Assembly: GCA_947643165.1 (NCBI GenBank)
Contig: CANRVB010000005.1
Span: 62,001 to 126,000 of the forward strand
DNA: 64,000 bases
Origin: an uncultured Porphyromonadaceae bacterium
GTDB taxonomy: Bacteria; Bacteroidota; Bacteroidia; Bacteroidales; Muribaculaceae
Direction: 5' to 3'
Numbering within the stretch: position 1 is the stretch's first letter; each line of letters opens with the position of its first letter. Of the stretch, positions 28,700 through 29,038 are shown piece after piece. Both the position numbers and the translations under genes were made by a program. The notes beneath the pieces are model-generated. The model was given only the letters and a program-made list of their open reading frames with translations, did no database searches and was not told where the DNA came from.

Positions 28700-28707
28700 T
28701 ATATTTG
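28700..28707 (+). promoter_or_regulatory. -7 box of a promoter in the non-coding region
   Basis: TATATTTG fits TAnnTTTG; TTG at 28675-28677 lies 22 bases upstream. It points into a region without a coding frame, so it probably drives an RNA gene. Confidence 0.55.
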
Positions 28708-28712
28708 CACTC

Positions 28713-29038
28713 ATATCAGGTCAGACAGGTTGCAGCGGCAACCATTGCCTGAGATTTTTAGATGGTGTATCTGACGCGGTTGCTCTGACAATCGGGACGA
28801 CTCACCAAGGTGTTATTGAAATCATATCTTCGTAATTCAAACTTGGCCGTTGGAACTTACGCTCAGAAGATAAGTATGCGATAGCATTTGCATTGTATGA
28901 TGATGACACTGCGGATCAGCTTATATTCTCCGCAATGTGTGTGGCAATACGGTGTGAGGCTGTTGTCTTGTCGAGAGCAAAGGTAAGCCAAGACCTGAAT
29001 TAGAGATAAGACAGATATATGATCCTCACACCTTTTTT
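28713..29038 (+). ncRNA. Candidate structured small RNA, about 325 nt
   Basis: No convincing coding frame lies here, yet it has a promoter (28700), a terminator (28951-29038) and several nested hairpins. These are GGTTGC/GCAACC at 28728-28743; CCAAG/CTTGG (28805-28809 with 28842-28846) enclosing TTGAA/TTCAA (28816-28820 with 28836-28840); and ACAC+GCGGA/TCCGC+GTGT between 28906 and 28940. A 7-bp pairing TTGCTCT (28780-28786) with AGAGCAA (28974-28980) would form a pseudoknot with the terminal stem. It lacks the signatures of RNase P RNA, tmRNA and SRP RNA. A divergent 6S RNA is possible but unproven. Confidence 0.5.
28951..29038 (+). terminator. Terminal stem and T-run of the candidate RNA
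   Basis: GGTGTGAGG (28951-28959) pairs perfectly with CCTCACACC (29024-29032), followed at once by TTTTTT. An inner 6-bp helix pairs TGTCTT (28964-28969) with AAGACA (29008-29013). The long apical part makes it unusual for a simple terminator and suggests it is part of an RNA fold. Confidence 0.6.

Follow-up and report, generated by a model that had tools for sequence, protein, structure and literature searches.

A structured 5' leader element that probably acts as a two-state transcription attenuator is present in one copy, at 28807-29067, in the window, the 64,000-nucleotide stretch of a Muribaculaceae genome analysed here (GenBank assembly GCA_947643165.1, contig CANRVB010000005.1, positions 62,001 to 126,000 of the forward strand). 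From the comparison of related sequences the element is likely to be a leader RNA in which a terminator is exchanged for an antiterminator around a core of kissing hairpins, and which is not in Rfam 15; in the surveys made here it was found only in Bacteroidales.

The features of the window copy are collected in Table 1. The original prediction had described a promoter, a region with no coding frame, nested helices and a terminal stem, placed between two strong terminators next to an iron-uptake operon, and these parts of the description stand. The box TATATTTG, which we take to be a -7 box of the Bacteroidetes type, has its counterpart before the elements of relatives: TAnnTTTG lies 39 to 118 nt upstream in 50 of 59 copies, the window copy counted, versus 3.8 expected from mononucleotide shuffles, and is found upstream in 74 of 117 copies of the other, short subtype (5.9 expected, again from mononucleotide shuffles). 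The 22-23-nt promoter stretch that ends with the box (28689-28711) is repeated exactly before another gene of the same genome (L019) and twice in genome G027 (L012 and L017). No credible frame crosses 28712-29038, where we find a 42-residue frame from TTG on the minus strand and a 63-residue plus-strand frame that begins at 29019 and exits downstream. Terminator-like hairpins lie at about 28593-28635 (by eye) and at 29362-29390, and PepSY_TM, DUF4374 and TonB-receptor genes are found beside the element on the minus strand. The PepSY_TM protein (29481-30788, minus strand) contains a long GER/GGRGE low-complexity repeat with a weak match to Pfam Collagen.

No convincing plus-strand ORF was found behind the window copy. 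The frames near 29068-29457 are one of 63 residues (29019-29210), one of 46 residues from 29344 and a TTG frame from 29439 that is antisense to the PepSY gene; a Pfam search with 41 residues from a TTG at 29085 gave no match. Helices P1, E, A, B, D, K, H3 and X are all present, and C has just 4 bp. The window copy is probably an orphan, its RNA nearly intact and with no recognisable gene downstream, and is perhaps one that has lost its gene; since no obvious gene follows, the RNA may be made alone at this locus. Just 3' of the element there is an inverted repeat, TTTTACAATCGAT/ATCGATTGTAAAA, with arms about 100 nt apart (29163-29175 and 29278-29290). A repeated insertion downstream of the element was ruled out, a blastn search with this stretch returning only the query itself in its own genome.

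Table 1 Features of the window copy and its surroundings.
Feature	Position	Strand	Partner, evidence or remark
Choloylglycine-hydrolase-family gene	27511-28557	+	upstream neighbour
Promoter -7 box (presumed) TATATTTG	28700-28707	+	TAnnTTTG also upstream in 50/59 copies
5' segment peculiar to window copy, includes GGTTGCAGCGGCAACC	28712-28804	+	relatives: small hairpin or tiny uORF
P1 5' strand AAGGTGT (putative antiterminator)	28807-28813	+	P1 own vs swapped 0/2000
Helix E 5' strand	28825-28831	+	partner 28866-28872; covariation
Helix A 5' strand	28833-28839	+	partner 28996-29002; covariation
B, loop of hairpin G	28842-28847	+	pairs with B' 28987-28992
Helix C 5' strand	28861-28864	+	partner 28975-28978; 4 bp in window copy
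Helix E 3' strand	28866-28872	+	partner 28825-28831
F hairpin 5' arm	28879-28895	+	covariation
F hairpin 3' arm	28950-28965	+	28951-28959 doubles as X 5' strand
Helix D 5' strand	28963-28970	+	partner 29007-29014
Helix C 3' strand	28975-28978	+	partner 28861-28864
Hairpin G' (AGGT/ACCT), loop B' 28987-28992	28981-28996	+	at least 3 bp in 58/60 copies
Helix A 3' strand	28996-29002	+	partner 28833-28839
Helix D 3' strand	29007-29014	+	partner 28963-28970
K strand GATCCTC	29021-29027	+	pairs 29055-29061 across T-run, or its CCTC with F3 in X
Putative terminator stem X 3' strand	29024-29032	+	swap tests, folding
P1 3' strand ACACCTT	29028-29034	+	partner 28807-28813
T6 run of putative terminator	29033-29038	+	two leading T paired in P1; further ones in relatives whose 5' A-run is longer
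H3 hairpin ACTGC/GCAGT	29047-29067	+	K' in loop, 29055-29061
Region occupied by relatives' ORF; here small or antisense frames only	29068-29457	+	ORF listing
PepSY_TM, DUF4374, TonB-receptor genes	29478-34674	-	convergent downstream neighbours

The segment 28712-29038 folds with a minimum free energy (MFE) of -101.9 kcal/mol against a shuffle mean of -86.5 kcal/mol (z -3.2; equalled by none of the 100 shuffles), in line with the nested helices predicted, and the terminal hairpin (28949-29040) with -31.5 kcal/mol (z -5.3). The 9-bp terminal stem is there as described, GGTGTGAGG/CCTCACACC (28951-28959 with 29024-29032), followed by six T residues at 29033-29038. The 7-bp pseudoknot named in the original prediction (28780-28786 with 28974-28980) is not supported: its letters are complementary, but we estimate that chance alone would give about three 7-mer matches of this kind in 327 nt, the 5' strand lies outside the conserved element, and the 3' strand overlaps C', which has another partner in the family. 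What survives is the broader claim of an uncharacterised structured RNA with pseudoknot-like pairings; the helices covary, and the conserved crossings are E, D, the loop-loop pairing B/B' and K. The element also extends beyond 29038, into the H3 hairpin (29047-29067) that holds the partner of K. From 5' to 3' the order is P1a, E, A, the G hairpin (loop B), C, E', the F hairpin, D, C', the G' hairpin (loop B'), A', D', K, P1b, the T-run and H3 (K' in its loop); helices A, B and C are nested, and E and D cross them.

Relatives were matched by blastn in 12 of 61 genomes, the element itself being present in 11; the matches in G027 and one match in the window's own genome consist of the shared 22-nt promoter stretch only, and that genome holds two copies of the element. 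A covariance model of 220 positions (R1), made from 12 copies (the window's, the second copy of its genome and ten from other genomes), matched in 15 of 34 genomes of the genus, in 35 of 295 genomes of the order (25 of 184 genera) and in 2 of 395 genomes of the phylum, both of them Bacteroidales; these surveys used a model trained on the window's subtype, with stricter filters in the larger ones, so the counts are lower bounds. At E<=0.001, R1 matched 10 times in genome G115 and 12 times in G309, and ten genomes searched at E<=1 gave up to 15 rows each. A pattern search for the short subtype returned at least 120 copies, and among the matches listed (80 titles) nearly all are titled for Bacteroidales groups, exceptions being for example L141 (titled Synergistales) and L198 (bacterium P3).

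Compensatory changes support the proposed core. A MAFFT alignment of the 12 copies preserves pairing in 96.0% of the cells of P1, A, B, C and F and contains 16 pairs with changes on both sides, with a pair score of 0.325 versus 0.119 shuffled (0 of 500); P1 is invariant in this alignment. Helices E, D and X, scored as a set, reached 0 of 500 for four of the five measures; X by itself has no pair changed on both sides in the 12 copies, its covariation coming from the wider set. That set comprises 60 copies, those with returned loci minus three weak or antisense matches, and an alignment of 52 of them that omits eight (six with long inserts, plus L041 and L072). Across the 52 copies both-side changes occur in 39 of 42 pairs, in an alignment fitted to the model and therefore leaning toward it. 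The search model includes P1, A, B, C and F, and selection of the copies was therefore in part for these helices. In swap tests, each copy's own 5' and 3' strands were compared with strands exchanged between copies (n=60), and not one permutation in 2000 scored as high as the mean of the own strands in the case of A, C, D, E, G or K; the strands were chosen after the same alignments had been viewed, which makes these tests checks rather than blind tests. B also gave 0 of 2000, but with strands selected because they pair, and the support for B/B' therefore comes from the 12- and 52-copy alignments. The covariation that the original prediction had proposed as a check is strong.

In 58 of 60 copies G' encloses B' with 3 bp or more (types AGGT/ACCT, AGGC/GCCT, TGGC/GCCA and others), and B/B' therefore looks like a loop-loop contact. 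In the core supported by these changes, hairpin E-G (loop B) and hairpin D-G' (loop B') would kiss through B/B' and zip together through A and C. The linkers are short, and E, A, D and C are compatible with a four-way junction.

The strand before the U-run appears to be contested. Paired with the 3' arm of F it would form stem X, an intrinsic-terminator-like hairpin that also encloses helix D. The same strand can instead pair with the 5' end of the element in P1, whose A-run would take bases of the U-run (in relatives with AAAAAGCGT the 5' A-run pairs with the U-run itself), and in most copies it can also pair with H3 behind the terminator as K/K', while F3 is held by F5. P1 and K/K' thus share the 3' strand with X, and X excludes P1, K and F because the same bases are used. 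Variants of X across the family include GGTGTGGG/CCCACACC, GGCGTGAG/CTCACGCC, AGTGTGGG/CCCACACT and GTGGGCTTT/AAAGCCCAC, among others. A strict rule, asking for 7 bp or more with a T-rich tail of at most 9 nt, finds X in 51 of 60 copies, and the own strands of X score 9.55 versus 7.78 when swapped (0 of 2000, n=60), the controls in this set being a neighbouring strand at 777 of 2000 and two more at 69 and 315 of 1000. Among 119 copies of the short subtype, of which 101 have 6 bp or more of X near the T-run, X again gave 0 of 1000, and three control strands gave 982, 521 and 899 of 1000. A fourth control in this subtype, the P1-E segment against the F3 region, also gave 0 of 1000, with a margin of 0.67 against 0.74 for X, which is either an additional pairing or a warning about the swap test; this result and the circular test of B slightly lowered our confidence in the attenuator reading. 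P1 and K/K' each gave 0 of 2000. K has at least 5 bp in 47 of 60 copies and its pairing spans the T-run; as K' lies behind the T-run, we argue that the read-through RNA is a functional product.

The family has, in sum, a terminator-like stem followed by a U-run, alternative stems (P1, F and K) that share the strand of X and, in relatives, the order promoter, leader and ORF on one strand, of which the window copy has no recognisable ORF. We infer that zipped hairpins would favour P1, F and K, so that the downstream ORF is read through, and that if zipping failed or was delayed X would terminate transcription. In 55 of 60 copies the fold forced to contain B and P1 has the energy of the free MFE; on average it is 12.2 +/- 5.6 kcal/mol lower than the fold with X forced, so the switch decision would have to be kinetic, during transcription. 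Candidate triggers are a ligand, a protein, a partner RNA or the behaviour of a ribosome on a tiny upstream ORF (uORF).

With a ligand as trigger the element would be, strictly speaking, a metabolite riboswitch whose kissing core is a small-molecule aptamer, and this would be one special form of the attenuator. The core is compact, GG and CC beside B' are near-invariant (though paired in G'), and the terminator/antiterminator platform is present, but few unpaired bases are conserved, loop lengths vary and the downstream genes appear to share no pathway, leaving this a possible but doubtful proposal.

The preference for the P1/B fold in 55 of 60 copies would also suit a structured leader whose effect is on the translation or the stability of the mRNA, perhaps through H3/K being displayed beside the start codon or through resistance to 5' decay, with X secondary. 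The downstream ORF often starts about 45-100 nt past the T-run and K/K' forms just upstream of it, as such a leader would have it. We consider this explanation unlikely, as X covaries, mostly abuts the U-run and overlaps P1, F and K, all unexpected of a stem with no role.

Ribosome behaviour is raised as a trigger by the short subtype, many copies of which carry an upstream ORF of 2-5 codons. Among the copies with more than 200 nt upstream (117 of 120; L124-L243), to which the uORF and motif counts refer, 72 have GCC[TA]ATG, mostly about 25-40 nt before the core, against a shuffled mean of 1.0. A stop follows in frame in 69 of these 72, after 1 (32 copies), 2 (20) or 4 (17) further codons, whereas over this 15-nt span the other two frames contain a stop in 11 and 27 of the 72 copies; a small palindrome, TATnnnATA, could explain part of this pattern. 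The window's subtype is without the GCC[TA]ATG motif and has a small hairpin there instead. A ribosome starting and stopping on the uORF might set whether zipping beats termination, or might cross the folded RNA to the main start codon, a handover that would be a bacterial analogue of viral ribosome shunting; to this ribosome reading as a whole we attach little weight.

What lies behind the element supports the attenuator reading. Of 119 short-subtype copies, 108 have an ORF of at least 60 residues whose start is no more than 300 nt from the T-run, and TAnnTTTG between T-run and ORF is rare, at 0 of 60 copies (first 55 nt) and 7 of 84 in another set (up to the ATG). With an ORF behind most copies, K/K' across the T-run and few second promoters, the element looks like a read-through mRNA leader with an attenuator. 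These same observations weigh against the free-standing RNA gene of about 320 nt, ending at the terminator, that had originally been proposed. Such a small RNA gene, ending at 29038 and acting in trans, would account for a window copy with a promoter, a terminator and no recognisable downstream ORF, and for the 11 of 119 short-subtype copies in which the 300 nt searched hold no ORF (in some of these the contig ends there); we judge it very unlikely.

The downstream products are diverse, and the only shared trait seen is export, and that in one subtype. Among short-subtype downstream ORFs of at least 100 residues (101 of the 108), 91 look exported versus 156 of 586 neighbouring ORFs (Fisher p ~9e-35), a comparison that concerns one pattern-selected subtype and uses a crude home-made scorer and mechanically called background ORFs; lipoboxes occur in 30 of the 101 proteins and in 48 of the 586 other ORFs of the same loci. 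Elsewhere the bias is weaker: judged by eye, exported-looking products number 4 to 6 among 11 close relatives of the window copy, and 20 among the 31 ORFs that follow 36 copies in five genomes. No Pfam family is common to 105 downstream proteins, which include BspA-type leucine-rich repeats (7), PEGA (6), lipocalin-like proteins (5), outer-membrane barrels (4) and others. Products that appear cytosolic, TerB-like ones among them, are also seen.

The cores of two copies from different families, L047 (f1) and L072 (f68), are 97% identical, yet different genes follow; a third core (L071, f1) is 94% identical to both, and its gene begins like that of L047. The near-identity across families suggests horizontal spread of the leader or of a cassette. 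One copy (L244) is on an unannotated 77-kb plasmid record of Phocaeicola massiliensis (OY725995.1, 62858-63065). That the element is the end of a mobile or recombinogenic cassette (attC-like folded DNA) carrying diverse cargo, with RNA structure incidental, would fit the L047/L072 pair, the many copies in some genomes and the plasmid copy, but is highly improbable given that a promoter usually precedes the element, that paired changes back two alternative folds of one strand, and that viral contigs (searched with one pattern) and phage records (one query) gave no match. A phage element was rejected on these searches, one query against phage records and one short-subtype pattern against viral contigs, and the idea of an acquired cassette for interbacterial defence was dropped after a literature search gave it no support.

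Comparison with known RNAs agrees with the original remark that marks of RNase P RNA, tmRNA and SRP RNA are lacking: no Rfam family reaches threshold in the window, 6S and Bacteroidales-1 included, and the known-family match that had been named as counter-evidence is absent. At the gathering score no family of Rfam 15 matches the core in the window and 40 loci, and in E-value mode the window region and nine loci gave only weak, unrelated matches on the core. In the window region the weak matches (E 2 to 7.8) concern families with no relation to the element: two are antisense to the core, and a plus-strand one (29021-29170) reaches only the 3' end of the core. 6S (RF00013) and Bacteroidales-1 (RF01693) are rod-like RNAs of similar size, the latter occurring in the same genomes, and both were rejected: 6S has no match in the window's genome at E<=10, and Bacteroidales-1 is a separate gene there (G000:C13:11929-12118).

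DUF805b (RF02914) and DUF805 (RF03081), the latter reportedly described in an earlier paper, are likewise cis-regulatory motifs in Bacteroidales leaders, but are short, have other coordinates and lie downstream of the core with no overlap. In one genome (G187) 4 of 7 DUF805b matches sit 26-40 nt downstream of copies of the element, and 20 of 24 DUF805/DUF805b loci have no R1 match at E<=1e-4. Tandem leaders, with DUF805/DUF805b motifs or DUF805b-like regex matches between element and start codon, were seen at L091, L092, L101, L105, L109, L267, L268, L270, L272 and L289.

Transcription attenuators and riboswitch leaders with terminator-antiterminator exchange form a general class, and the element resembles them in its structured 5' leader, its two exclusive stems sharing a 3' strand, its U-run and the ORF behind. 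It differs in that the putative sensor is an intramolecular pair of kissing hairpins, that the products are unrelated (mostly exported in one subtype) and that our surveys found it in Bacteroidales only. In plasmid antisense attenuators such as pT181 kissing hairpins are coupled to a terminator, as here, but the partner hairpin comes in trans from an antisense RNA, whereas both hairpins would be in one leader here; to our knowledge, kissing hairpins coupled to attenuation are known only in trans, from antisense attenuators. CopA-CopT is not known to involve terminator exchange. As reported by Kolb et al. 2000b (cited in PMC10798244), the two hairpins of the CopA-CopT complex kiss and extend to a four-way junction with side-by-side helices; the analogy is ours, and two molecules are involved there, one here. 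The odc1 motif, as outlined in PMC8632094, combines a short uORF and a pseudoknot in a structured leader, and resembles our element in these respects; its structure is another one, its uORF encodes an 11-residue peptide, and it belongs to alpha-proteobacteria. Literature searches found no description of the leader RNA, which the supplements of PMC8040213 may list.

If the attenuator reading is right, the element would be an undescribed class of regulatory RNA before many genes of dominant gut bacteria, one subtype standing mostly before genes whose products are exported or at the cell surface (BspA-type repeats, lipoproteins, PEGA, lipocalin-like proteins and outer-membrane barrels). Should ribosome behaviour prove to be the trigger, surface and exported proteins would be tuned to translational capacity across Bacteroidales. 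With the attenuator as we propose it, whatever its trigger, Bacteroidales would share RNA-level control of unrelated proteins through kissing hairpins in one leader.
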